Assembly: GCF_003856975.1 (NCBI RefSeq)
Contig: NZ_CP033107.1
Coordinates: 2,728,001-2,792,000 of the forward strand
DNA length: 64,000 nucleotides
Source: Plantibacter sp. PA-3-X8
GTDB taxonomy: Bacteria; Actinomycetota; Actinomycetes; Actinomycetales; Microbacteriaceae
Direction of reading: 5' to 3'
In this document: positions 10,279 through 59,087 of the stretch, one piece after another
How positions within the stretch are numbered: the stretch's first letter is position 1
How the letters are laid out: each line of letters begins with the position of its first letter
Made by a program: the position numbers and the translations under genes
The notes under the pieces: model-generated
Database searches by the model: none
Told to the model about the DNA's origin: nothing
What the model saw: the letters and a program-made list of their open reading frames with translations, nothing else

Positions 10279-12180
10279 TCAGGTCCCGCTCGGTGTCTCC
10301 TCATCCGCTGCCAGGTTCTTCTGGACGGCGAACTGCGTCCGGTGCAACTCTTCGTACCGCCCGCCGGAAGCCAGCAGCTCGTCGTGCGTGCCCCGCTCCA
10401 CGATCGAGCCGTCCTCGACCACGAGGATCAGATCCGCGCTGCGGATGGTTGAGAGCCGGTGCGCGATGACCATCGCCGTCCGGCCTTCGAGGGCCTCGCT
10501 GAGCGCCGCCTGCACCGCCGCCTCCGAGGTCGAGTCCAGTGCCGCTGTCGCCTCATCGAGGATGACGACGCGCGGCTGGGCGAGGAGCAGCCGCGCGATG
10601 GTCATCCGTTGGCGCTCACCACCGGAGAGTCGGTAGCCACGCTCGCCCACCATGGTGTCCAGCTGGTCCGGCAGGGACCGGATGAGCGGTTCGAGCCGCG
10701 CGCGGCGGACGGCGTCCCACACCTCGTCCTCGGACGCCTCCGGACGTGCGAGACGCAGATTGGAGCGGATGGTCTCGTGGAACAGGTGACCGTCCTGCGT
10801 CACCATGCCCAGGGTGTGCCGCATGGAGGCGAAGGCGACATCGCGAACGTCCGTCCCCGCGAGACGCACGGCGCCCTCGTCGACGTCATACAGCCGCGAC
10901 AGCAGCTGCGCGATCGTGGACTTACCCGCTCCCGACGAGCCGACGAGGGCGACGGTCTGCCCCGGCTCGATCCGGAAGGAGACGCCGTGCAGCACCTCCT
11001 CGCCGCCGCGGGTGTCTAACGTCGAGACCTCTTCCAGAGAGGCCAGGGACACCTTGTCCGCCGACGGGTAGGCGAAGTGGACGTCGTCGAACTCGACGGA
11101 CACCGGACCATCGGCGACGGTGACGGCGTCGGGCTTCTCCAGGATGAGCGGTTCCAGGTCGAGCACCTCGAACACGCGCTCGAAGCTGACCACCGCGCTC
11201 ATGATCTCCACCCGGGCGTTCGCGAGGCCGGTCAGCGGTGCGTAGAGGCGGGTGAGCAGGAGCGCCAGGGTGACCACCTCACCGGTGTCCAGTTGCCCGG
11301 CGAGTGCGAGGATGCCGCCGAGGCCGTACACGAGGGCGAGGGCGAGGGCGGAGACGAGCATCAGCGCGGTGAAGAAGACGAACTGCAGCATCGCCGTCCG
11401 GACGCCGATGTCGCGGACGCGGGCGGCACGGACGCGGAACTCCTCAGCCTCCTGATCCGGTCGACCGAACAGCTTGACGAGCGTGGCACCGGGCGCTGAG
11501 AACCGTTCGGTCATCTGCGTGCTCATGGCCGAGTTGTGGTCGGCGGCTTCGCGACGCAGCGCGGCGAGACGGCTACCCATGCGGCGCGCGGGTACCAGGA
11601 AGATGGGGAGCATCACCACGGCGAGGACCGTCACGAGCCATGACGTGCTGAGCATGACGATCAGCGTGAGGATCAGGGCCACGAGGTTCGTGATCACGCC
11701 GGACAGCGTGCCGCTGAAGGCCTGCTGCGCGCCGATCACGTCGTTGTTGAGGCGGCTCACGAGCGCGCCCGTCCTGGTGCGGGTGAAGAACGCGATCGGC
11801 ATCTGCTGCACGTGGTTGAAGACGGCGGTGCGGAGGTCCAGGATCACGCCTTCGCCGATTCGCGCCGAATACCAGCGCGTCACGAGCGACACGGCGGCGT
11901 CCGCCACGGCCACGAGGGCGATGACGACGGCGAGCCGGACGATCGTGGCCACCTCGCCCCGGGCGACGATGACATCGACCACCTGGCCGGCGAGCACCGG
12001 CGTCGCGACCGCGAGGAATGCTCCCGCGACGGAGAGGGCGATGAAGACCAGCAACTTGGACCGGTAGGGCACCGCGAACGTCATGATGCGCCGCACGGAC
12101 TCACGGGAGATGCCGTGCTTCCCGTCCTTGGCGGTCGAGATCTTGTACAGCGAGCTCCAGGCCGCGCTCTCCATGCTCAT
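10279..12180 (-). CDS. ABC exporter half-transporter (fused membrane and ATPase domains)
   Basis: A 633-residue export-type ABC protein, probably working as a homodimer. Six membrane helices span about residues 35-330. The nucleotide-binding domain has Walker A GSSGAGKS (Lys420), Q-loop MVTQDGHLF, signature LSGGERQR (518-525), Walker B VVILDEA (Glu543) and the switch histidine in VIAHRLST. All catalytic motifs are intact, unlike those of the pair near 51-55 kb. The ATG at 12180 has GAGGAG upstream. It belongs to the lipid/multidrug exporter group, and the substrate is not predictable. Confidence 0.9.
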   Translation of the reverse strand: MSMESAAWSSLYKISTAKDGKHGISRESVRRIMTFAVPYRSKLLVFIALSVAGAFLAVATPVLAGQVVDVIVARGEVATIVRLAVVIALVAVADAAVSLVTRWYSARIGEGVILDLRTAVFNHVQQMPIAFFTRTRTGALVSRLNNDVIGAQQAFSGTLSGVITNLVALILTLIVMLSTSWLVTVLAVVMLPIFLVPARRMGSRLAALRREAADHNSAMSTQMTERFSAPGATLVKLFGRPDQEAEEFRVRAARVRDIGVRTAMLQFVFFTALMLVSALALALVYGLGGILALAGQLDTGEVVTLALLLTRLYAPLTGLANARVEIMSAVVSFERVFEVLDLEPLILEKPDAVTVADGPVSVEFDDVHFAYPSADKVSLASLEEVSTLDTRGGEEVLHGVSFRIEPGQTVALVGSSGAGKSTIAQLLSRLYDVDEGAVRLAGTDVRDVAFASMRHTLGMVTQDGHLFHETIRSNLRLARPEASEDEVWDAVRRARLEPLIRSLPDQLDTMVGERGYRLSGGERQRMTIARLLLAQPRVVILDEATAALDSTSEAAVQAALSEALEGRTAMVIAHRLSTIRSADLILVVEDGSIVERGTHDELLASGGRYEELHRTQFAVQKNLAADEETPSGT

Positions 12181-12309
12181 TGCGACTCCTCACGCCCCGC
12201 TGCGCATGAGCACGTCCCCGACCCCGGTCACGACCCGGGTGGCGACGCGAACGCAGACCTGCGAGAGCGTATCAGCCTCGCCGTTCCCGACCTGAACGCT
12301 CTGGCGTCG

Positions 12310-12534
12310 TCAGCGTTCGGCGCGCAGGGCCGTCCACATCACGACGAAGGCGGCGGCGATGCCGAGCACGCTTCCGGCGAGCCCGACGATCATGGCGGGA
12401 TGGCCGGTGTCGGCGAGGCCGATCGAGCAGGCGACCACACCGACGCCGGACGCCATCAGCGCGACGAAGCTGAAGGCGGCGAGGATGAAGCGCTTCGTGG
12501 TCCGGGTGGGATCGGGGGCGGGAGGGAGCGACAT
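12310..12534 (-). CDS. Small two-helix membrane protein, unknown function
   Basis: A 74-residue protein with a short charged N-terminus and two predicted membrane helices (about residues 15-37 and 46-69). The ATG at 12534 has GAGG upstream. It lies on the same strand as the ABC exporter, 129 bases before it, and about 110 bases after the FecCD operon, from which a hairpin seems to separate it. I do not recognise a family. Confidence 0.6.
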   Translation of the reverse strand: MSLPPAPDPTRTTKRFILAAFSFVALMASGVGVVACSIGLADTGHPAMIVGLAGSVLGIAAAFVVMWTALRAER

Positions 12535-12608
12535 CGTGCCTCGTTTCCGCCGTCGCGTGGGCTGCGTCGGCTCTTCGGCATCAGGCTAGAGGGCCGCCGA
12601 TCGATGCG

Positions 12609-12633
12609 GTGAGGGGGTATCCCCGGTCCTCAC
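12609..12633 (-). terminator. Hairpin downstream of iron locus 1
   Basis: GTGAG...CTCAC flanks an inner GGGG-TAT-CCCC hairpin, 10 bases after the end of the second FecCD permease gene. It may end the siderophore-uptake transcript before the small membrane protein gene. There is no T-run, so termination is inferred from position and structure. Confidence 0.4.
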
Positions 12634-12643
12634 GACAGAACGG

Positions 12644-13696
12644 TCACGAGCGTCTCCGGATCTCGTGGACGAGGAGCCAGACGAGGTAACCGCCACCCAC
12701 GATCACGGTGACGACCCCCACCGGCAGCGACGTCGGCAGCAGGTGCTGCGCGACGACGTCGGATGCCAGTAGCACGAGCGCCCCGAGCAGAGCAGACGGC
12801 ACCAGTGCGATGCCGGCGGTGCGGGTGATCCGCTGCGCGATCTGCGGGGCGGCGAGGGCGACGAAGGCGATGGGTCCGGCCGCGCCCGTGACGACAGCCG
12901 TGAGCGCGACGGCGCACGCCACGAGACCGAGCCGCGAACGTTCGACCCGCGAGCCCAGCGCCTTCGCCGCGTCGTCGCCGAGCTCGAGCTGGCGGAGCGA
13001 ACCACCGAGCGGACCGAGGGCGATGATGATGGTCAGGATCACGACTGCGGCCGGAAGCAACTGCGCCCAACCGACGCTGTTCAGCGAGCCGGCACCCCAA
13101 ACGGTGGCGAGCATCGCGACTTCGAGCTTCGCCCGCAGTACGAGGTAGGAGCTGAGCGCCTCGAGCATGGCCGAGACACCGATGCCCACGACGATGAGAC
13201 GGAAGCCCTGGACGCCTCGACGGTAGCTGAGGAGGTAGACCAGCGCTGTGGCGATCAGCCCGCCACCGATGGCGCCGCCCGCGACGGCTGCCGACCCGGC
13301 GCCCGCGCCGATCACGATGGTCACGATGAGACCGCCCGCGTACGATCCCGCAGTGAGCCCGATGATGTCGGGGCTCGCGAGGGGGTTCCGGGTGAGGGAC
13401 TGGAAGATCGCACCGGAGAGCCCGAGGGCTCCTCCGAACAGGAGGGCGGCGAGGACCCGTGGGAGGCGCCATTCGAGCACCACCGTCTGCACCAGGGTGC
13501 TCGGTCCGCCGAGGAACGCCGACGCCACCTCGTCGACCGACAGCGGCAGATCGCCGAGACACAGCGCGAGCAACGCCAGGGCCAAGAGGACCACGCAGAA
13601 CACCCCGCACACGACGATCGTGCGCAGCCGGACACGGAGGGAGAGCGAGCGCCGCCGACACACGACCGCGCGCGGTCCCGTCTCGACCCCGGTCAC
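12644..13696 (-). CDS. FecCD-type siderophore permease (FepG-like)
   Basis: A 350-residue integral membrane subunit of a ferric-siderophore ABC importer. It has the family core (WRLPRVLAALLFGGALGLSGAIFQSLTRNPLASPDIIG) and the ATPase-contact region around LELGDDAAKALG. The GTG start overlaps the stop of the preceding permease gene (GTGA, 13693-13696). With its partner it would form the BtuCD-type heterodimeric channel. No ATPase gene of the FecE/FepC type follows in this locus. Confidence 0.92.
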   Translation of the reverse strand: MTGVETGPRAVVCRRRSLSLRVRLRTIVVCGVFCVVLLALALLALCLGDLPLSVDEVASAFLGGPSTLVQTVVLEWRLPRVLAALLFGGALGLSGAIFQSLTRNPLASPDIIGLTAGSYAGGLIVTIVIGAGAGSAAVAGGAIGGGLIATALVYLLSYRRGVQGFRLIVVGIGVSAMLEALSSYLVLRAKLEVAMLATVWGAGSLNSVGWAQLLPAAVVILTIIIALGPLGGSLRQLELGDDAAKALGSRVERSRLGLVACAVALTAVVTGAAGPIAFVALAAPQIAQRITRTAGIALVPSALLGALVLLASDVVAQHLLPTSLPVGVVTVIVGGGYLVWLLVHEIRRRS

Positions 13697-43874: not shown

Positions 43875-45056
43875 TCAACGAACGGTGCCGGTGAGGGACT
43901 CGTGCAAGGCGTCGATGATCGCCGTGGCGCGCACGTCGCCGACGCCCTCCATCTGATTCGTCAAGAATGCGAACCCGATGTCCTGGCGTGGATCGGCGAA
44001 CGCGACCTGTCCGCCGGCACCGTCGTGCCCGAAGCTGCTCGACGACAGGTAGTGGCGGGCCTCGCTGTCGAGCTGGAACCCCATACCCCAGGCCGGCCAC
44101 GGCCCGGGAACCTCCCAGACGGGCGGACCGGACGATTGCACGGCGGTGGCCGCGGCGATGGTGGGCACGTCGAGCAACCGGACGCCGTCGGTCTCGCGGA
44201 ACGAGGCCGACCAGATTGCGGCCAGGGCCCGGGCGCTGGCGATCCCTCCGGCGCCGGGAATCTCCGCCGCCTGGACCTCGGGTCGGTTGAACCCGGCCTC
44301 CGGGCCGACGAGTTCGGGCGGCAGAGCACCGCCGAGCGTCATCGCCTGCTCCGACCAATCGACGACGCCCGGTGCCCGGGCCGCCGCCTGGACCCGCGTC
44401 AGCTCCGCGAGCGAGTCGCCGACGAGCATGGTGGCGACTCTCCCGTGTTCGGAGGGGGGCAGACCGATCCACGCGTCAGCGCCGAGCGGACGCGCGACCA
44501 GGTCCTGGAACGACGCTCCGACGCTCATCCCCGTCACTCGGCGGACGACCTCACCGATCAGCCAACCGTGGGTGATCGCGTGGTAGGCGTATCCGGCTCC
44601 CGGCTCCCAGAGCGGCGCCTGCGCCGCGAGTCGCCCGGTGACCGTGTCCCATTCGAGCAGCTCGCTGGGGGTGAGCGGGATGCGTGGTGCGGAGAGCCCT
44701 GCCCGATGCGCGAGCAGCTCCCGCACGCGCACCGCCGACTTGCCCGCAGCCGCGAACTCCGGCCAGTACTCGACAACCGGTGCATCGTAGGAGAGCCGTC
44801 CCTCCTGCACGAGCCGCGCCGCCAACAGCGACATCAGACCCTTCGTACAGGAGAAGACCACGCTCAGTGTGTCGTCGCGCCACGGGATGGAGGCCGCGGC
44901 ATCGGTGGTCCCGGCCCAGAGGTCGACGACGGACACGCCACGGTGACGGACGGCGAGCGCGGCACCCATCGTCGGCTGGCCGTCGAAGGCACGCTCGAAC
45001 GAGGCGGCGACCGACTCGAAGCCGGGGGAGACCAGGCCGTGCACCGTGACCGTCAT
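43875..45056 (-). CDS. Serine hydrolase, class C beta-lactamase fold (esterase EstB-like)
   Basis: A 393-residue enzyme with the penicillin-binding/beta-lactamase fold used by many esterases. The nucleophile motif is S-x-x-K at Ser69-Lys72 (VFSCTKGLMSL), the general-base tyrosine region is GYAYHAITHGWL (Tyr158) and the third motif GHDGAGG is near residue 350. No signal peptide is seen, which argues against a true beta-lactamase. The ATG overlaps the stop of the GH32-like gene (ATGA), so it is coexpressed with sugar breakdown and might remove ester groups from imported oligosaccharides. That role is inference. Confidence 0.86.
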   Translation of the reverse strand: MTVTVHGLVSPGFESVAASFERAFDGQPTMGAALAVRHRGVSVVDLWAGTTDAAASIPWRDDTLSVVFSCTKGLMSLLAARLVQEGRLSYDAPVVEYWPEFAAAGKSAVRVRELLAHRAGLSAPRIPLTPSELLEWDTVTGRLAAQAPLWEPGAGYAYHAITHGWLIGEVVRRVTGMSVGASFQDLVARPLGADAWIGLPPSEHGRVATMLVGDSLAELTRVQAAARAPGVVDWSEQAMTLGGALPPELVGPEAGFNRPEVQAAEIPGAGGIASARALAAIWSASFRETDGVRLLDVPTIAAATAVQSSGPPVWEVPGPWPAWGMGFQLDSEARHYLSSSSFGHDGAGGQVAFADPRQDIGFAFLTNQMEGVGDVRATAIIDALHESLTGTVR

Positions 45057-50574: not shown

Positions 50575-51465
50575 TCAGAGGCCGAGGCGGTCGAGCTGCT
50601 CCTCGAACCGGATCTGCACGTCCTCCGGTTCAGCGTCCTCCACGGCGCTCCAGATCGCGTCGAGCTCCTGTTGGACGGACGCCGGGAGGGCGGCGAACTT
50701 CTCGTCCCAGGCGGTGATCGGCGTCCAGTACCCGACCACCTTGAAGCGGGTGGCGGGTAGCCCGAGCTCCTTGCGCAGATACTTGCGCACGTCGCGGAGG
50801 GCCACCGTCTCACCCGCCACCCAGATGTAGCCCTGATCGAGCGGGAGGCGCTCGTCCACGACACTCCGGACGAGTCGGCCCAGCGCACTCGGGCCGTGTC
50901 CGTTGCCGCCTACCACCCAGGTGACCGTCACGTCGTCGTTCGTCTCGATCGCGATCCGATCCTGCTCGCTCGGTACCTCGAGCACCACGCGGGTCCGCAC
51001 TCCGGGCGGTGTTTGTGCGACGATGCGCTTGACTGCGGGAAGACCGGTGAGGTCCGCGACGAGCACCTGCCAATCCATGCCGGCGGGCGGCGCGTACAGG
51101 CCGGTGGGCGAGTTCAGGCCGAGCACGTGTCCGGGCTGGGCGCGAGCCGCCCACGGCCGCGCGACCCCGGCCTCGTGCACGACGAAGTCGATGTCGATCT
51201 CGACGGGGTCCTGCCGCACAGCGCTGATCGTGTAGGTCCGCATCGGTGCCTGCGGTGAGCCCTCCGGCGTCTCCCACCAGTCGCCTGCCGGTACCGGGAG
51301 CGAGACGTCCGTCGGGTCGGCGCCGTGGGGGAAGAACACGCGGACGTACTCATCACCCGTGCCGGTGCTGACGAAGTCCTCGACGCCCGGACCGCCGAGG
51401 GTGATGCGGATCAGGTTCGGACTCAGGGGTGTCGCTACGGTCACGATGCCGCGGTGGATCTTCAT
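50575..51465 (-). CDS. Siderophore-interacting protein (FAD-dependent ferric-siderophore reductase)
   Basis: A 296-residue cytoplasmic flavoprotein of the SIP/ViuB family, which reduces ferric siderophores to free Fe(II). The FAD-binding signature is MRTYTIS, with the SIP start RGIVTVATPLSPNLIRITLGG and the NAD(P)H-binding half (DRIAIETNDDVTVTWVVGGNG; YIWVAGETVALRDVRKYLRKE). The ATG at 51465 overlaps the ABC half-transporter stop (ATGA). In mycobacterial IrtA a SIP domain is fused to such a transporter; here it is a separate but coupled gene, the last in the operon. Confidence 0.93.
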   Translation of the reverse strand: MKIHRGIVTVATPLSPNLIRITLGGPGVEDFVSTGTGDEYVRVFFPHGADPTDVSLPVPAGDWWETPEGSPQAPMRTYTISAVRQDPVEIDIDFVVHEAGVARPWAARAQPGHVLGLNSPTGLYAPPAGMDWQVLVADLTGLPAVKRIVAQTPPGVRTRVVLEVPSEQDRIAIETNDDVTVTWVVGGNGHGPSALGRLVRSVVDERLPLDQGYIWVAGETVALRDVRKYLRKELGLPATRFKVVGYWTPITAWDEKFAALPASVQQELDAIWSAVEDAEPEDVQIRFEEQLDRLGL

Positions 51466-53273
51466 GGCGTCTCGGCCTCTCGGGTCGGTTCGGTGTGCTG
51501 GGTAGGATGCGGGCTGTGCGCGAGCCAGGACTCGCGGTAGGGGCCGGGGGAGGCGAGGAGTTCCGCGTGCGTGCCGTGTTGGACGATCCGACCGTCCGCG
51601 AAGACCGCGATCCGGTCGGCGGTGGCGGCCTGCTCCAACCGGTGCGCGATGAGCAGCGCGGTGCGGTCCGTCCGGAGGACGGCGATCGCCGCTTCGACGG
51701 CGTCGCGATGGTGCAGCCCGACGTCGGCTGTCGCCTCGTCGAGGATCACGATCGCCGGGTCCGCGAGGAACGCCCGAGCGACCGCGAGTTGCTGGATCCG
51801 CCCCTCGTCGAGCGGCAGGGGCGACGGCCTCGACCCGGTCGGGTCCGCCGCCGGGTCGTCCTGCAACGCGGTGACTGCCCACTCGGCCCCGACGGCACGG
51901 AGCGCCGAGACCATCTCGTCCCGGCTGGCGTGCGGAGCCCCGAGTCGGAGGTTGTCGGCGATCGAGCCACGGAAGTGGTGGAGCTCCTGCGACAGGTAGT
52001 ACGGGGTGTGGCCGACGAGCACCCGCCCCGACGTCGCGGGATGGTGTCCGGCGACGACCCGCGCCAGGGTGCTCTTGCCCGAGCCGGACGTGCCGACGAG
52101 CGCTGTGGTCGTACCGGGCGGTACGTCGATGGTGACCTCCGCGATCCCACGGTCCGTGGTCGGATACCGGAACGTCAGGTCGCGCACTCGGATCGCCGGC
52201 GGTGCGGTGACACCGTCTGCGGCACCGCCGACGGGTGAGGGCGACTCCGGCATCGCGGACGACGCTGCTGCGAGGTCGATGACCCCGACGAGCCGAGCCA
52301 GCCCGACCGTGGCCCGCTGGATGTCGTCGAGCCCGAAGATGAGCCGGCCGACCGGATCGAACAGCCGGTGGAACAGGAGCGCGGCGGTGGTCACGAGCCC
52401 GACGGTGATCGTTCCCTGCAGGTTCAGGAGGAAGCCGGTCGCCAGGATCGCGGACAGTCCGATGAGCTCACCCGAGTTGATCCATCGGAACAAGCGGTTC
52501 GCGACCCGCACGCCCTCGATCTGCGCGTCGATGGAGGCGGCCGCGCGTTCCCGGACACGTTCGAGCGCGTGGTCCGTGCCCACAAACGCTGCGAGGGTCT
52601 CCGCGCCGTCGACCACGTCCAGCACGGCCTGACTGCGCGACGCTTCGCGAATCCGGACCGTGCGGAACACCACTCGGGATCGCCGGAGGAACGCACGGGT
52701 CCCGAGGACGTAGCACGGCACCGAGGCGAGACCGGCGAGCGCGAGCCACGGGTCGACGGCTGCCAGGGCGACGGCCGACACTCCGATCGCGAACCCGGCG
52801 GAGAGCAGTGTCGGGGCGACGTTTCCGCCGGCCTCCGCGACCGCGTCGACGTCGCCGGTGACCCGGGACAGGAGATCGGCACGCTCGCCGTCGTCGACGG
52901 TGCTCACCGGGAGCCGCATGGCCGAGGCGAACACATCCTCGCGCAGTTCGGCGAGCAGGTCCTGCACCAGCCCCGTGAGCACCCGAGTCGCCCACAGCGT
53001 CACCGCGACGGCCCCGACAGCGCCGACGGCGGCTGCGGCCACCCAGCCTGAGATGACGCTCAGCCCGGCATCGGAAGCGACGGCGTCCACGATCCGCCCG
53101 AGACACGCGGGCATCACGACACCCAGTGCGGCGGCTGCGAGGAAGAGGACCACCACGGCGGCGGTCCGTCCGCGGTGTCGTTGGAGGAGGGCATCGACGA
53201 CGGTTCGGACGCGGGAGCCCTCGGCGACGGGGAGCATCTCGGCGGTGGTGGGCTCCGTGGCGGGATCAGTCAT
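51462..53273 (-). CDS. IrtB-like ABC half-transporter with degenerate signature motif
   Basis: A 603-residue export-fold ABC protein (membrane domain about 30-330, ATPase domain about 360-590). Walker A GTSGSGKS (Lys400), Q-loop YYLSQELHHF, Walker B VILDEAT (Glu513) and switch His544 (LLIAHRLEQ) are intact. The signature motif reads LDEGR (488-492) instead of LSGGQ, so this protein cannot complete the ATP site of its partner normally. The ATG lies 8 bases inside the partner gene's end. By the neighbouring SIP gene it is probably a siderophore importer of the IrtAB kind. Confidence 0.88.
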   Translation of the reverse strand: MTDPATEPTTAEMLPVAEGSRVRTVVDALLQRHRGRTAAVVVLFLAAAALGVVMPACLGRIVDAVASDAGLSVISGWVAAAAVGAVGAVAVTLWATRVLTGLVQDLLAELREDVFASAMRLPVSTVDDGERADLLSRVTGDVDAVAEAGGNVAPTLLSAGFAIGVSAVALAAVDPWLALAGLASVPCYVLGTRAFLRRSRVVFRTVRIREASRSQAVLDVVDGAETLAAFVGTDHALERVRERAAASIDAQIEGVRVANRLFRWINSGELIGLSAILATGFLLNLQGTITVGLVTTAALLFHRLFDPVGRLIFGLDDIQRATVGLARLVGVIDLAAASSAMPESPSPVGGAADGVTAPPAIRVRDLTFRYPTTDRGIAEVTIDVPPGTTTALVGTSGSGKSTLARVVAGHHPATSGRVLVGHTPYYLSQELHHFRGSIADNLRLGAPHASRDEMVSALRAVGAEWAVTALQDDPAADPTGSRPSPLPLDEGRIQQLAVARAFLADPAIVILDEATADVGLHHRDAVEAAIAVLRTDRTALLIAHRLEQAATADRIAVFADGRIVQHGTHAELLASPGPYRESWLAHSPHPTQHTEPTREAETP

Positions 53274-54918
53274 GGCGGGTCTCCGAACCGGGAGTGAGCT
53301 CGACGACCCTGTCGCAGGCGTTCAACAGGACCGGCGAGGTGGTGATGACGACGACGGTGCCGTCGTGCGCCGCGAGTGCTCGGGCGATGCGGGTCTCCGT
53401 GAGGACGTCGACGGCCGACGTCGGTTCGTCGAGGACGAGCACGTCCGCACCGGCATGGAGCGCCCTGGCGATGCCGACGCGCTGGCGCTGCCCGCCGGAG
53501 AGCCGTCTGCCCGCCTCACCGACCGGTGACGACCAGCCGCCGAGCTGCACGACCGCGTCGTCGAGCGCCGCCATGCCGACGAACACCGCATCCGGGTCGC
53601 CGGTCACGTCATGACCGCGGACCGCCTCCGCCAGGGTGCCGCTCATGATGCGCTGGCCATGCGGTGGCGCGACCACACGACGGCGGTACGCCACCGGGTC
53701 GAGGTCCAGCTGGTCGACGAGTCTGCCGTCGACGGCGAGCGAGACGCTGCCGCGCTCGGCGGGGGTCCGCATGCCGAGCAGACGGGAGAGGGCGCGCGCC
53801 GTGTCGCTGTCGGGCGGCCGGACGCCGAGCAGTTCACCAGCACGGACGTCCACCGGTCGGTCCTGGTGTTCGGGGTGGAAGGACAGCACGACGTCGGTCG
53901 CAGGGCCGGAATCGGACGTCTCGTCCAGCCGACCGCCCGCTTCGAGCAGGTCGTCGGCGTCGACGACCGCTGCCAAGCGCTTGGCGGAGGCGAGCTTGTG
54001 GATCCAGTTGGACGGGAATGATCCCGCCTGTGCGAGGTATCCGCTGATGAACTGCGCGAGGCCGAGCACCGTCACGAGTTCGCCGATGCTGATCCGACCC
54101 TCCGCGGCGAACCACGCGGACAGGCCGACGAGTGCGGCCATGACGAACGCCGCCAGCGTGCCGCTCACGGCGTCGAAGAGGGCGAGGGACCGCCCGGCGG
54201 CCGTCGCAGCGCGTCGTGCGACATCACTGGCGGCGTCATATCGCCGCACGGCTTCAGCCCGCCCGCCGATGCCGACGAGCACTCGGAACCCGCTCATGAA
54301 GTCGGCGGCCACCGCTCCGGCCTCGGTCGCCGCCCGTTGCTCGGCGAAGCCGCGGCGTTCCAACGGGCGTGACACGACGCGCATGACGAGCATCATGCCG
54401 ATGGTCGACACGAACACCACGATCGTCGCCACCGGCGAGATCACCGACATCGCCAGCGCGGCTCCGATGATGGCCGCGATGGTCGCCGACTGCTGCGCGA
54501 CCGACCAGGCGACGCCGGCCACCCGGTAGGTGTCGGACGTGACGACCGTCAGGGCCTCACCCGCCGAAAGGTTCTGTCGCGAGAGCTGCGGCCGAAGCAT
54601 CCGGGAGAGTGTGAGGTGCCGGAGCGCCTGTTCGCCGTGCCCGTAGATCGACACCATGAGGCGCGACGCCGACTGATAGCTCACCGTCAGGACGAGGAAG
54701 GTCCCGACCAGGAGCCCGATCCAGACCCCGAGGGCGACCGGATCGGACGGCACCACCGCGCGGTCGATGGTCGCCCCGATGATCACGGGGATCGCCGCCT
54801 CCGAGAGGGCGTGCACGATGAGGAGGCCGGTCGCGGCGACGAGCATGGCGCCGCGACCGTCCGCTCCCAGCGCGATGCCGAAGAGGCGCCGCGGCGTGCT
54901 GGTCGTCGTCCCGCTCAC
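53266..54918 (-). CDS. IrtA-like ABC half-transporter with lost Walker A and H-loop
   Basis: A 550-residue export-fold ABC protein (membrane domain about 25-310, ATPase domain about 340-545). The P-loop position reads GVRPPDSDT (365-373), with no GKS/T lysine, and the switch histidine is replaced (VVITTSPVLL, Thr527). The signature LSGGQRQR (473-480) and Walker B VLVLDEP (Glu498) are canonical. Its defects are thus complementary to those of the partner. I checked the reading frame through the P-loop and find no frameshift. The GTG at 54918 overlaps the fepC-like stop (GTGA). Confidence 0.87.
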   Translation of the reverse strand: MSGTTTSTPRRLFGIALGADGRGAMLVAATGLLIVHALSEAAIPVIIGATIDRAVVPSDPVALGVWIGLLVGTFLVLTVSYQSASRLMVSIYGHGEQALRHLTLSRMLRPQLSRQNLSAGEALTVVTSDTYRVAGVAWSVAQQSATIAAIIGAALAMSVISPVATIVVFVSTIGMMLVMRVVSRPLERRGFAEQRAATEAGAVAADFMSGFRVLVGIGGRAEAVRRYDAASDVARRAATAAGRSLALFDAVSGTLAAFVMAALVGLSAWFAAEGRISIGELVTVLGLAQFISGYLAQAGSFPSNWIHKLASAKRLAAVVDADDLLEAGGRLDETSDSGPATDVVLSFHPEHQDRPVDVRAGELLGVRPPDSDTARALSRLLGMRTPAERGSVSLAVDGRLVDQLDLDPVAYRRRVVAPPHGQRIMSGTLAEAVRGHDVTGDPDAVFVGMAALDDAVVQLGGWSSPVGEAGRRLSGGQRQRVGIARALHAGADVLVLDEPTSAVDVLTETRIARALAAHDGTVVVITTSPVLLNACDRVVELTPGSETRHD

Positions 54919-55703
54919 CGGCTCCGCCGTCCGAGCGGGAGTACCAGCGGGGTACCGGAGACGGGGTCGGTGATGACCTGGCACGGCAGGTCGTACACGG
55001 CCTCCACGAGGTCGGCGGTGATGATCTCCTGGGGATCGCCCTGGGCGACGATCGCACCGTCGCGCATCGCGACGAGATGGGTCGCATAGCGGGCGGCGTG
55101 GTTGAGGTCGTGGAGGACCGCGACGAGGGTGGTGCCGCTGCGATGCAGATCCGTGAACAGCTCCATCAGCTCGATCTGGTGCGCGATGTCGAGGAACGTC
55201 GTCGGCTCGTCGAGCAGCAGGTGCTTCGTCTGCTGGGCGAGTGCCATCGCGACCCAGACGCGTTGCCGCTGTCCGCCCGAGAGCTCGTCGACCAGCCGGC
55301 GGGACAGCTCCGTGACCCCCGTCGCGGCCATCGCCTCCGAGACCGCCGTTTCGTCGGCGCTGCTCCACGTCCGCATCGCGCTCTGGTGCGGGAACCTCCC
55401 ACGCCCGACGAGGTCGGCGACGGTGATCCCGTCGGGGGCGATGGCGGATTGGGGGAGGAGCCCGAGTCGGCGAGCGGTGTCCTTCGGTTTCGACGCGCGG
55501 ATGTCCGTCCCGTCGAGGAGGACGGCACCGGCGGTCGGACGCAGGAGCCGTGCGAGTCCGCGGAGCAGGGTCGACTTGCCGCAGGCGTTCGGTCCGATGA
55601 TGATCGTGAACGAGTCGTCCGGCACCTCGAGCGACAGCTCGGAGACGATCGGAGCATCGCCGTAGCCCAGGGTGAGGTCGCGGGCGAGGAGCGACGTGGT
55701 CAT
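54915..55703 (-). CDS. Siderophore ABC importer ATPase (FepC-like)
   Basis: A 262-residue cytoplasmic ATPase. Walker A is GPNACGKS (37-44), Q-loop GLLPQSAIAPDGITV, signature LSGGQRQRVWVAMALAQ, Walker B LLLDEPTTFLD and the switch histidine VLHDLNHAARY, all intact and in the FecE/FepC pattern. The ATG at 55703 has AAAGGA upstream, 11 bases after the permease gene. It should power the adjacent FecCD permeases, and since it is the only FepC-type ATPase visible it may also serve iron locus 1. Confidence 0.95.
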   Translation of the reverse strand: MTTSLLARDLTLGYGDAPIVSELSLEVPDDSFTIIIGPNACGKSTLLRGLARLLRPTAGAVLLDGTDIRASKPKDTARRLGLLPQSAIAPDGITVADLVGRGRFPHQSAMRTWSSADETAVSEAMAATGVTELSRRLVDELSGGQRQRVWVAMALAQQTKHLLLDEPTTFLDIAHQIELMELFTDLHRSGTTLVAVLHDLNHAARYATHLVAMRDGAIVAQGDPQEIITADLVEAVYDLPCQVITDPVSGTPLVLPLGRRSR

Positions 55704-55714
55704 GGGAGTTCCTT

Positions 55715-56761
55715 TCACGTGCGGCGCACGAATTGGGCGGCCAGCAGGCAGGTCAGATAGATGCCACCGACCGAGAGCGTCACCACGCCGACCGGGACCG
55801 CGAGCAGCTGGGCGACGGCGTCGGAGACGACGACCAGGGCGGCTCCGGTGAGCATCACCGGCGCGAGGCCCATCGGGGTGTTCGAGCGGGTGAGCCGTTG
55901 AGCGATCTGCGGGGCGGCCAAGGCGATGAACGAGATCGGGCCGGCGGCGGCGGTGACGAGCGCCACGAGGGCCACACCGACGACCATGGCGATCAGCCGG
56001 GTGCGTCCAGGGCGCACTCCGAGGGCCATGGCGGCGTCGTCGCCCATCTCGAGCACGGGGAGCGAACGTCGGAGTGGCCGAGCAAGCATGGCGAACACGA
56101 CGAAGGCCGTGGCGGCGGGGAGCAGCTGGTCGAAGCCGAGCGAGGCGAGGGATCCGGCACCCCAGGTGGCCGCCATCATCGCCTGCTCGACGCTGACGGA
56201 GATGAGGATCCAGGAGGTGAGGGAACCGAGCCCGGCCGAGACGCCGATGCCGACGATGATGAGCCGGAAGGACGACATGGTGTGGCGGTTCGCGAGGACG
56301 GCGACGAGCAGGGCGGTCAGCAGACCGCCGACGAGTGCCCCGGCGGCTTTGAACAGGTAGGTGTTGAGCCCGAGGACGAGCATCGTCAGCGTGACACCGA
56401 ACTGCGCGCCGACACCGAACCCGATGATGTCCGGTGAGCCGAGCGGGTTGCGGGTGAGCGACTGGAAGATGCCCCCGGAGAGCGCAAGTGCCGCTCCGCA
56501 GAGCACCGCGAACAGCACCCGCGGCAGTCGCCACTCGGTCACGACCTGGCGGACGTCCGGGTCGGACGCGGGGTCGACGATCGCCCGGATGACCGCGGAG
56601 AAGCCGATCTCGTACGCTCCGATCGTCGTCGCGAACAGCCCTGCTCCGATGATCACCACGACGAGTCCGAGGCACACGAGGACGGACCGCACGGGTACGA
56701 GCGTCGCGATGTGCGCGGTCTCCACGCGGATCAGCCGTCGTCCATGGTCGATGACGCTCAC
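55715..56761 (-). CDS. FecCD-type siderophore permease (FepG-like)
   Basis: A 348-residue BtuC-fold permease with WRLPRVLFAVLCGAALALSG, FQSLTRNPLGSPDIIG and the ATPase-contact area LEMGDDAAMALGVRPGRTR. The GTG start overlaps the previous permease stop (GTGA, 56758-56761). It is the counterpart of the 12644-13696 protein in iron locus 1 and pairs with the 56758-57867 permease. Confidence 0.93.
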   Translation of the reverse strand: MSVIDHGRRLIRVETAHIATLVPVRSVLVCLGLVVVIIGAGLFATTIGAYEIGFSAVIRAIVDPASDPDVRQVVTEWRLPRVLFAVLCGAALALSGGIFQSLTRNPLGSPDIIGFGVGAQFGVTLTMLVLGLNTYLFKAAGALVGGLLTALLVAVLANRHTMSSFRLIIVGIGVSAGLGSLTSWILISVSVEQAMMAATWGAGSLASLGFDQLLPAATAFVVFAMLARPLRRSLPVLEMGDDAAMALGVRPGRTRLIAMVVGVALVALVTAAAGPISFIALAAPQIAQRLTRSNTPMGLAPVMLTGAALVVVSDAVAQLLAVPVGVVTLSVGGIYLTCLLAAQFVRRT

Positions 56762-57867
56762 AGTCCGCTCACCCGCTTCCGACGCACCAGCATGATCAGG
56801 ATGGGAGCGCCGAGGAGCGCCGTGACGATCCCCACCCGGAGCTCTCCGGACGGCAACACGATCCGGCCGAGGACGTCTGCGAGCAGCAGGAACGCGGGGC
56901 CGATCACCATCGAGTACGTCAGCACCCAGCGCTGGTCGGGGCCCGTGAACCACCGGACGACATGGGGGATCATGAGGCCCACGAAGGCGATCGGACCGGC
57001 GGCTGCGACGCCCGTACCGGCCAGGAGGGTGACGGCGACGACGACCCACACCCGGGTGCTGCGCACTCGCGCCCCGAGCGCCTGGGCGAGTTCGTCTCCC
57101 AGGGTCAGCGCGTTCAGCGACCGGGCGCAGAGCAGACCGATCACGAGGCCCGCGACGATCAGCGGAGCAGCCCACGTGAGCTGGTCGAGGGTGCGGCCCC
57201 CGATGGATCCCACGCTCCAGAAGCGCATGACCTGGAGGGTGCCTTCGTCCCGCAGCACGATCGCGGTGGTGAAACCGGTGCAGGCGGCACCGAGGGCGAC
57301 CCCCGCGAGGGTCAGTTTCATCGGGGTCGCGCCCGAGGCCCCGACGGATCCGAGCGTGTAGACGATCACCGTGAGGATGAACGCACCCGCCAGGGCGAAC
57401 GGGACGTAGGTGCCGGGAGTCGTCAGTCCCAGGACACCGACCGCGAAGGTCACGGCGAACGACGCACCGGCGTTCACCCCGAGGATGCCCGGGTCGGCGA
57501 GCGGGTTGCGGGTGAAGGCCTGGATGAGCCCGCCGCAGACGGCGAGCGCCGCACCGACCAGGATGCCGAGCAGCGTCCGTGGGACGCGCAGCTCCATGAC
57601 CATGAGGTGCAGGGGGTTCGCGTCGTCATAGGCGACGAGCGCGCGGACGACGGTCAGTGGATCGATGGCCCGATTGCCGATGGCGAGTGAGGCGACGGCT
57701 GCGGCGATCAGCACCACGGTGGCGACGAGGAGCCCGGCGGCGAGGGTCCCGGTGCGGTGGGGCGAGACGTCCGCGCGTCCGGCCCCACCGGGCGTCGGGA
57801 CGTCCGCCGCCCCGCCCGCAGCCGGCGCTGCTGACGGGGCGGCGGACCGGGACATCTCCGACGTCAC
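56758..57867 (-). CDS. FecCD-type siderophore permease (FepD-like)
   Basis: A 369-residue permease with an Ala/Pro/Gly-rich cytoplasmic N-terminus of about 45 residues, then the BtuC fold (LRVPRTLLGILVGAALAVCG, GLIQAFTRNPLADPGILG, LTLGDELAQALGARV). I chose the GTG at 57867 because it overlaps the binding-protein stop (GTGA) like the other junctions in this operon; the ATG at 57855 is an in-frame alternative with GGAG close by. Confidence 0.92.
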   Translation of the reverse strand: MTSEMSRSAAPSAAPAAGGAADVPTPGGAGRADVSPHRTGTLAAGLLVATVVLIAAAVASLAIGNRAIDPLTVVRALVAYDDANPLHLMVMELRVPRTLLGILVGAALAVCGGLIQAFTRNPLADPGILGVNAGASFAVTFAVGVLGLTTPGTYVPFALAGAFILTVIVYTLGSVGASGATPMKLTLAGVALGAACTGFTTAIVLRDEGTLQVMRFWSVGSIGGRTLDQLTWAAPLIVAGLVIGLLCARSLNALTLGDELAQALGARVRSTRVWVVVAVTLLAGTGVAAAGPIAFVGLMIPHVVRWFTGPDQRWVLTYSMVIGPAFLLLADVLGRIVLPSGELRVGIVTALLGAPILIMLVRRKRVSGL

Positions 57868-58925
57868 TTGCCGTCGATGGTCGGCTCGCCCTGCAGCGCC
57901 GCTGCGAGGTCGTCGACGTAGCCGGGCAGGACGTACTGCAGGGACAGGACGGTCGGCGCGCTGATGGCCGAGGCCTTGGCGGCGTCGGCGTAGATCACGT
58001 AGGACCCGGCGGCGATCGGCGCCCAGCGCGACACCACGGCGTTCTCGACCGTGTACGTCCCTTCCTCGGCACTTCCACCCCACGCGGCGAACAGGTCGGC
58101 GTCCACGTCGTAGAGCTGCTCGAGGCTGACGCCGGTGTACCAGTTGTCGCCCTCGGCGCTCGCGAGGAAGCTGTCCATCGCCGACGTCGAGGTGAAGCCG
58201 AGCGCTTCGGTGATGCGGACCCGCGGGTCGTACTCGAGGTAGACGCCGAGGTCCGTCCCGCCCTCGTTCAGGGTGAGGCCCCAGACGAAGCTCTTGTCGT
58301 CGAACTCGGGGTGTGCGTCGGCGAGGGAGGTGATGAGGTCCTCGGTCTCGCCGATGAGCTCCTCGGCCTTGGCCTCCTCCGACATCGCCTTCCCGACGGT
58401 GCGGGTCATGCCCTCCCAGGTGCCCGGGTTCCAGGGTCCCTCGATGTAGGGGACGGTCGGGGCGATCTCGGTGAGCCGCTCGTATTCGATGTCGGTGACA
58501 CCGGAGTAGAGGCTGAGGATCAGGTCGGGCTTCAGGGACTTGATCGCCTCGTAGTTCGGGCCGTCGTCCGTGAAGGGGATGATCTCGGGCATCTCGCCGT
58601 ACGCCTCGGAGACGTAGTCCTCGAACCAGGGCTGGTAGCCGCTCTCACCGGCACCCCAGACCTCTTCGATGCCGACGGGGTTGGTGCCGAGGGCGGCGAC
58701 GATGTCAGGCGTCATCCACCCGAGAGCCACGATCCGTTCCGGCTTCTCCGGGATGACGGTCTCACCGTGGGCGTGTTCGATGATGACGCCGTCGGTCGAT
58801 GCCGTCGTCGATCCGGTGTCGCCGGTGGCGGCCGAACATCCGGCGAGGGCGAGAGCGGTGGCGATGACGGCGGCGAGGAGGGTGGATCCTCGGCGGACGT
58901 TCGGGCGCGCGAAAGCGTGCGGCAT
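57864..58925 (-). CDS. Iron-siderophore substrate-binding lipoprotein
   Basis: A 353-residue FepB/FhuD-type lipoprotein. The lipobox LAGC gives Cys30. Family strands are HAHGETVIPEKPERIVALGW, LKPDLILSLYSGVTDIEYERL and IAPTVPYIEGPW. The ATG at 58925 has AAAGGAG upstream, and a further upstream frame overlaps the iron box and is rejected. It is the first gene of the six-cistron coupled uptake and reduction operon, 50 bases downstream of a DtxR-type box. It is a homologue of the 14708-15775 protein, but the two differ enough to suggest different siderophores. Confidence 0.93.
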   Translation of the reverse strand: MPHAFARPNVRRGSTLLAAVIATALALAGCSAATGDTGSTTASTDGVIIEHAHGETVIPEKPERIVALGWMTPDIVAALGTNPVGIEEVWGAGESGYQPWFEDYVSEAYGEMPEIIPFTDDGPNYEAIKSLKPDLILSLYSGVTDIEYERLTEIAPTVPYIEGPWNPGTWEGMTRTVGKAMSEEAKAEELIGETEDLITSLADAHPEFDDKSFVWGLTLNEGGTDLGVYLEYDPRVRITEALGFTSTSAMDSFLASAEGDNWYTGVSLEQLYDVDADLFAAWGGSAEEGTYTVENAVVSRWAPIAAGSYVIYADAAKASAISAPTVLSLQYVLPGYVDDLAAALQGEPTIDGK

Positions 58926-58975
58926 GGGGCTCCTTTGAAGAGGGGGGAGTGGGATCACCGCTGGCGATCCAGAAG

Positions 58976-58994
58976 TTAGGTAAGCATGTCCTAA
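58976..58994. promoter_or_regulatory. DtxR/IdeR-type iron box
   Basis: TTAGGTAAGCATGTCCTAA keeps the outer half-sites TTAGGT and CCTAA of the 19-base DtxR consensus, with mismatches near the centre and in the right arm. It lies 50 bases upstream of the binding-protein start, where it would block transcription of the whole operon when iron is plentiful. Confidence 0.8.
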
Positions 58995-59020
58995 CAGAAC
59001 GATCGTAGGGCGCTTCCGCG

Positions 59021-59056
59021 CGCGACAGCGTCGAGGAACCGACGAGTTCTGTCGCG
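59021..59056 (-). terminator. Hairpin after the AraC gene of iron locus 2
   Basis: CGCGACAG (59021-59028) and CTGTCGCG (59049-59056) pair perfectly across a 20-base loop, between the AraC stop codon and the iron box. It may separate the AraC transcript from the uptake operon; it could also be an AraC binding site. Confidence 0.4.
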
Positions 59057-59087
59057 GATCCGACACGGTGGTGCGTGCCCGGGTGGA

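Follow-up and report, generated by a model that had tools for sequence, protein, structure and literature searches.

The locus examined here raises the question of how an ATP-binding cassette (ABC) transporter might operate if both of its halves have lost motifs of the nucleotide-binding sites, and what such a protein might carry. It is located in the genome of the actinobacterium Plantibacter sp. PA-3-X8, a single contig of 4.08 Mb (NZ_CP033107.1), of which we have analysed a stretch of 64,000 nucleotides (positions 2,728,001 to 2,792,000 of the forward strand) that is hereafter referred to as the window. Two adjacent genes on its minus strand, with A preceding B and their open reading frames (ORFs) overlapping by 8 bases, encode half-transporters of 550 and 603 residues, which both belong to the type-IV (ABCB-like) class as judged from matches to PF00664 and PF00005 above cut-off, and whose closest named homologues are from Plantibacter. 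Their motif composition, the fixation of the losses among relatives, their ancestry and the surrounding genes make it probable that A and B assemble into one heterodimer, a type-IV transporter of TM287/288 descent that would contain a single ATP site and most likely export an iron-free siderophore.

Subunit A (53266..54918, starting with GTG) combines a transmembrane domain with an ATPase domain that is devoid of a P-loop, as the corresponding position reads ELLGVRPPDSDTARALSR / LLGVRPPDSDTARAL, and of the switch histidine, as the H-loop region (residues 522-534, 53317..53355) reads VVVITTSPVLL. The region of the Q-loop is altered too (PPHGQRIMSGT). The protein retains an intact signature motif LSGGQRQR (residues 473-480, 53479..53502), which is predicted to face the P-loop of B, and the Walker B motif LDEPT followed by the D-loop SAVD (residues 493-504, VLVLDEPTSAVD, 53407..53442). 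Subunit B (51462..53273) contains a complete catalytic half-site with Walker A (GTSGSGKST, residues 394-402, 52068..52094), Q-loop (SQE), Walker B (IVILDEAT, in residues 508-519, 51717..51752, which include the D-loop) and switch histidine (ALLIAHR, residues 539-545, 51639..51659), and it is the signature motif that is lost, with the position reading LPLDEGRIQQ (LDEGRIQQ at residues 488-495, 51789..51812). An earlier note on this DNA had placed the two subunits at the same coordinates and read their motifs in the same way, and we add to its account the degenerate D-loop of B, which reads ADVG. Of the 12 type-IV half-transporters recovered from this genome, 11 contain GKS/T, with A as the exception, and likewise 11 contain an S-[GA]-G-[QE] signature, with B as the exception, a coincidence that exceeds what would be expected by chance. 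In light of the head-to-tail geometry described for ABC dimers (PMC7756269), the motifs retained in A and B would together make up a complete site, and those lost would belong to the other. The complementary lesions recognized in the earlier note thus fall, as judged from the motifs of both subunits, on one composite ATP site and leave the other canonical.

Structure models predicted by AlphaFold2 (mean pLDDT 90.6 for A and 85.2 for B) suggest that the phosphate-binding loop of A is shortened, not merely mutated. In the model of A, residues 363-381 (53776..53832), which replace the Walker A P-loop, form a strand (363-367), a three-residue loop (P368-D370) and a helix (371-381), compared to a strand at 389-394, a loop at 395-399 and a helix starting at residue 400 in B, and the preceding strands are closer together in A (343-367) than in B (361-394). 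Foldseek searches with A return TAP, TM287/288, PCAT1, MsRv1273c/72c, MsbA and TmrAB as top matches, with TM-scores of about 0.5 and a root mean square deviation of about 15 over the whole chain, which define the fold class and no more.

Both losses are fixed in the family. For the analysis of A, we have collected 240 distinct sequences including A of the window, 120 from a protein search and 120 from genomic loci, where distinct refers to differences over the first 450 aligned residues, so that near-identical sequences are counted apart. Membership required an A4 score exceeding the A5 score by 60 bits, a threshold of our own choice, which removed 45 rows, all of them with GKS/T. The 247 distinct sequences of B were selected by a margin of 210 bits, again set by us, or by their presence in the match list of the B protein search; the 71 rows dropped comprise halves of the outgroup, canonical neighbours with IrtAB-like ones among them, contigs cut short and a single B fragment (L021, reading LDEGRVQQ). 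The underlying genome samples are overlapping draws and not censuses, and gave 13/396 genomes for the phylum, 103/394 for the class and 25/299 for the family at E 1e-60. In none of the 240 A sequences is GKS/T found in the respective segment or GxxxxGK[ST] anywhere in the aligned domain, and the switch histidine is absent in all 239 readable cases. SGGQ is conserved in 238, the two exceptions being one SGGE and one cut sequence. A search with a Streptomyces-like A added 120 homologues, of which none contains a P-loop and all contain LSGGQRQR. The replacement of the P-loop varies between branches, and the extreme C-terminus of the ATPase domain is often missing from A, with a GTHxEL-like tail found in 33/235 A rows, compared to 189/237 rows obtained with the B profile, outgroups included. 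The Walker B motif of A, whose glutamate the earlier note had pointed out, is intact in the window protein but not in general, with D-E found in 159/240 sequences and mostly H-D, H-E or V-E in the remainder.

In B, the catalytic residues are retained throughout (GK[ST] in 242/242 readable sequences, Q in 234/235, D-E in 211/211 and the switch histidine in 211/211), and an S-x-G-Q-like signature is found in only one of 216. This sequence, LTAGQKQQ at L158:6692-8467, is the nearest to the TM288-type LSAGQRQL and perhaps a transitional form. In an alignment of 40 A rows, the invariant columns include S474-R480 and D504, and in one of 35 B rows G394, G397, G399, K400, T402, Q429, D512, E513 and H544, so that the invariant nucleotide-site residues of both subunits belong to the retained site. 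The survey bears out the suggestion that the missing P-loop and the missing signature occur together, and it did not recover the orthologues with intact GKS/T that the earlier note had named as the sign of a sequencing error.

To place the pair in the ABC superfamily, we have compared it with its nearest relatives outside the family. In the 12 pairs fetched (L229-L240), all are ordinary asymmetric heterodimers with a P-loop in both halves. Their first halves contain GKS/T, LSGGQRQR, HR at the switch and, in 11 of the 12, the Walker B LDDAT, and their second halves GKS, [LF]SAG[EQ], LDEAT and AHR. In a tree with only the half-transporters of the window genome as outgroup, the sister of A could not be assigned, with its own first half L190 joining A weakly (55/30), and wider outgroups were therefore used. 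In the resulting trees, A and B each form one group (100/100 for both), an unrooted split separates A plus the first halves from the rest (100/100), and B is placed next to the second halves (97/95), in agreement with another tree (100/99 and 98/96). The trees assign A to the weak side and B to the consensus side of TM287/288-type exporters. The stem branches are long (0.9 and 0.66 changes per column) and no intermediate is found in the sample, so that the order of the losses cannot be read. With TM287/288, TmrAB, MsRv1273c/72c and TAP, the pair shares the type-IV fold and the combination of a weak with a consensus site, the weak site being formed by the same faces, but while the TM287/288-type relatives keep a P-loop in both halves, A and B have lost the P-loop, the H-loop histidine and the facing signature. 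In two loci (L247:2-5593 and L248:3419-8999), ordinary and erased-site halves are arranged in tandem, with a TM288-like half immediately before A and B and in the same orientation.

The genes surrounding the pair point to a role in siderophore transport. In the window, all on the minus strand, the apparent operon consists of a siderophore-binding protein (57864..59066, an ORF of uncertain start; Pfam Peripla_BP_2), two FecCD permeases (56758..58083 and 55715..57175, ORFs whose true starts are uncertain; Pfam FecCD), a FecE/FhuC-type ATPase of a binding-protein-dependent importer (54915..55757; Pfam ABC_tran), A, B and a siderophore-interacting protein (SIP), a ferric-siderophore reductase (50575..51474; Pfam SIP and FAD_binding_9). 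It thus contains a complete FecBCDE-type importer as defined by Pfam. In 95 distinct loci (two of 97 were dropped as duplicates), FecCD is found in the flanks of 59, a FecE-like ATPase (at least 150 bits) in 51 and the SIP reductase in 39, with flanks of varying length. FecCD accompanies the pair in 42/46 loci of the near branch, and within -1.7/+5 kb it is found in 43/95 loci but in none of the 12 control loci, which are few. In G541, G712 and G107:C8, condensation domains (PF00668) of nonribosomal peptide synthetases (NRPSs) are located at a distance of about 2-3 kb from A, and the layout B-NRPS-A is found in all three loci selected for the lack of a B next to A or for a similar A. In these three Streptomyces-like genomes, FecCD, FecE and a binding protein are followed by B, an NRPS of about 3,650 codons and A; the complete order is seen in two of them (L250 and L252), and the stretch of L249 breaks off inside FecE. 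This layout matches the coelichelin cluster of Streptomyces coelicolor with its esterase SCO0490, ABC transporter SCO0491, peptide synthetase SCO0492 and ABC transporter SCO0493 (PMC3897704), where SCO0491/0493 (CchGI) are presumed exporters of coelichelin and CchCDEF is named as the uptake system (PMC12161575, PMC3765725). By gene order only, B and A would correspond to CchG and CchI. As in a locus of this type, the pair is found among siderophore importer genes, but in the Plantibacter window A and B are adjacent without an NRPS between them and are followed by the SIP reductase. Among ten neighbouring ORFs of loci in the wider family, Pfam identifies an NRPS beside L127, a siderophore-binding protein beside L125, a regulator beside L137 and a catalase beside L172, and finds no family for the other six.

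In contrast to the NRPS-containing genomes, that of the window has no match to either PF00668 or PF04183 (IucA/IucC), and the latter is also absent from all six genomes consisting of the window genome and five others of its genus. The siderophore handled there would hence be foreign, unless it is made by a route that was not searched. An aerobactin-type (NRPS-independent siderophore, NIS) synthetase was considered as a partner of the pair and rejected, as PF04183 is found in 20 of 54 genomes but never near A, the closest case on the same contig being about 400 kb away (G736). In a search of 54 genomes, G801 and G868 contain 16 and 15 matches to the FAD-binding domain of SIP (PF08021), compared to at most 8 in the other 52.

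The location of the pair in one operon with a SIP reductase and a siderophore importer would also suit an IrtAB/YbtPQ-like importer, which takes up a ferric siderophore on a single ATP site and hands it to the reductase. Importers of type-IV fold do exist, as illustrated by IrtAB (PMC10246721), with which A and B share the fold, the siderophore locus and a nearby reductase, and in a genome with no match to PF00668 or PF04183 the uptake of a foreign siderophore would be the plainest need. We nevertheless regard this possibility as doubtful. The pair branches with TM287/288-type halves, and IrtAB-like rows fall into a clade of their own (100/99). IrtAB is described as binding ATP in each of its two sites (PMC10246721), as opposed to the erased site of A/B, where the reductase is encoded by a separate gene. 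In database comparisons, window A matches IrtB at 69.8 bits, compared to 409 bits for the match of L130:8656-10446 to IrtA in the PDB, and for B no Irt chain is found among the 60 PDB chains in the matches listed. Moreover, in three loci (L044:12047-15877, L130:7990-12212 and L133:1557-5782) IrtAB-like pairs, whose halves all contain intact P-loops, signatures, Walker B motifs and switch histidines, are located directly downstream of A/B, apparently as two different pumps in one siderophore locus. The operon of the window already contains a complete importer of FecBCDE type, and the relatives in NRPS clusters share the layout of coelichelin, whose ABC pair is presumed to be an exporter (PMC12161575). 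Descent does not fix the direction of transport, but the tree, the comparison of both ATP sites and the loci in which both types of pair are neighbours lead us to reject the membership of A/B in the IrtAB group; the label IrtAB-like given to the pair in the earlier note is at odds with the tree, and its designation as importer lacks support in a context that is no less compatible with a siderophore exporter.

Alternatively, the second site might be degenerate in sequence and yet bind ATP by unusual contacts, in a cycle where the nucleotide acts as glue as proposed for TM287/288-type pumps. In MsRv1273c/72c, an exporter of this type, the weak site binds ATP via its P-loop, with the bound nucleotide thought to act as such a glue, and ATP is found at both sites (PMC12038006). 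Similarly, the degenerate site of Pdr5 binds ATP with the help of a linker despite the replacement of the Walker A lysine by cysteine (PMC8421411), and in the window branch the Walker B motif of A is intact. We consider this scenario unlikely, as the P-loop is predicted to be shortened and is replaced differently between branches, the H-loop histidine is lost in all readable A, the facing signature in 215/216 readable B, and in other branches of the family the Walker B of A has degenerated. Since A contains no P-loop, the role of ATP as glue could not be filled as in MsRv1273c/72c. The complementary loss on both faces of one site, including the Walker A lysine, is not without precedent, as it is described for Pdr5 (lysine to cysteine, with the signature LNVEQ) and ABCG5/ABCG8 (lysine to arginine; PMC7756269), which unlike A/B are eukaryotic, of another ABC type and described as carrying substitutions within the motif. 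The judgement that the loss in A is more extreme than in usual asymmetric exporters therefore stands within the TM287/288 type, where the weak site of MsRv1273c/72c keeps its P-loop, but not beyond it. No type-IV pair with a lost P-loop is described in titles and the beginnings of abstracts of the open-access literature, which is not proof of absence. The genes are common, and the source names shown, with Streptomyces relatives of A included, are generic designations of ABC transporters.

It appears very improbable that A and B do not pair and instead act as homodimers, with other partners or as mere regulators of the FecBCDE importer, even though an NRPS gene separates them in coelichelin-like loci. 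A homodimer of A would lack a P-loop and one of B a signature, and each half supplies the part that the other is missing. In a search covering up to 3.5 kb from A on its own strand, B is found as neighbour in 96/97 loci, the exception being L028, where the short stretch covered contains no B. The distances between A sequences match those between B sequences (r of 0.969 over 89 pairs), with none of 1000 permutations as high, and we infer that both proteins form one heterodimer. Decay of A to a pseudogene or an error of sequencing, as the missing motif might suggest, can be dismissed with near certainty, as the same loss is found in 240 + 120 sequences and the signature of A is strictly conserved.

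We thus favour an exporter with a single ATP site. This site, to which A contributes the signature and D-loop and B the P-loop, Q-loop, Walker B and H-loop, is canonical, whereas the second, once composed of the P-loop and H-loop of A and the signature and D-loop of B, has been erased. In the proposed mechanism, one ATP would be bound and hydrolysed per cycle, and contacts between the proteins, in place of a slowly hydrolysed glue ATP, would close the erased site or hold it together. In genomes with an NRPS cluster, the cargo would be the newly made siderophore, and in genomes like that of Plantibacter a used (xeno)siderophore that is recycled outward after reduction by SIP. For the window genome, expulsion of a foreign siderophore following the removal of iron appears more likely than its uptake.

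Several observations weigh against this interpretation. The second site might still hold nucleotide weakly, and Q494, A497 and R500 in the former signature helix of B are invariant, indicating that this face is still constrained. The correlated divergence of A and B would also be expected from co-inheritance alone. A cycle driven by a single ATP would be at odds with the usual model of a sandwich of two ATP molecules. Outward transport is suggested by association and ancestry only, and type-IV folds can import; should no siderophore be made by this genome, an exporter would depend on the recycling argument. Finally, the association with FecCD is partial in the wider family (17/49 loci), and in the deepest branch (L164-L166, L168-L171 and L173-L177) no FecCD is found in the fetched flanks. 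The erased site is consequently older than a role in siderophore transport, or independent of it, and the substrate in this branch may differ. Several B proteins of the same branch keep a D-loop reading SLLD or SLID, and the Walker B of A is often V-E.

Elsewhere in the window, a second siderophore-type locus on the minus strand (10279-13696) combines a FecCD permease (12644-13696, Pfam FecCD at 252 bits) with an adjacent type-IV half-transporter (10279-12180). All motifs of the latter are canonical (GSSGAGKS, LSGGERQR, LDEATAALD and AHR), in contrast to A and B in the same window. No RNA families were found between positions 45000 and 62000 of the window. Four Streptomyces plasmid records match, of which the two examined list no genes at that place, and in Microbacterium sp. 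APC 3901, B is split over two frames (L021:9574-11371), reflecting either a frameshift in a draft assembly or decay.

Together, A and B represent the far extreme of an established class, the asymmetric heterodimeric ABC exporters, with one of the two sites erased. The role of the degenerate site and the need for a second bound ATP in asymmetric ABC pumps are a matter of open argument (PMC7756269, PMC12038006), and as the studied degenerate sites considered here still hold ATP, the question has not been cleanly posed, whereas in the present family the pump has persisted although the site and the signature that faced it are gone. The pair would in this way provide a natural one-site machine for comparison with TM287/288-type pumps of the same ancestry. 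For the distinction of transporters in siderophore loci, an erased site would mark candidates for siderophore-linked exporters and two intact sites IrtAB-like importers, which in some loci are found side by side. On balance, we think it probable that a widespread family of actinobacterial ABC exporters runs on a single nucleotide per heterodimer, and that a permanent protein-protein interface has taken the place of the second site, both faces of which were deleted. If so, both the two-ATP sandwich and the ATP glue would be dispensable.

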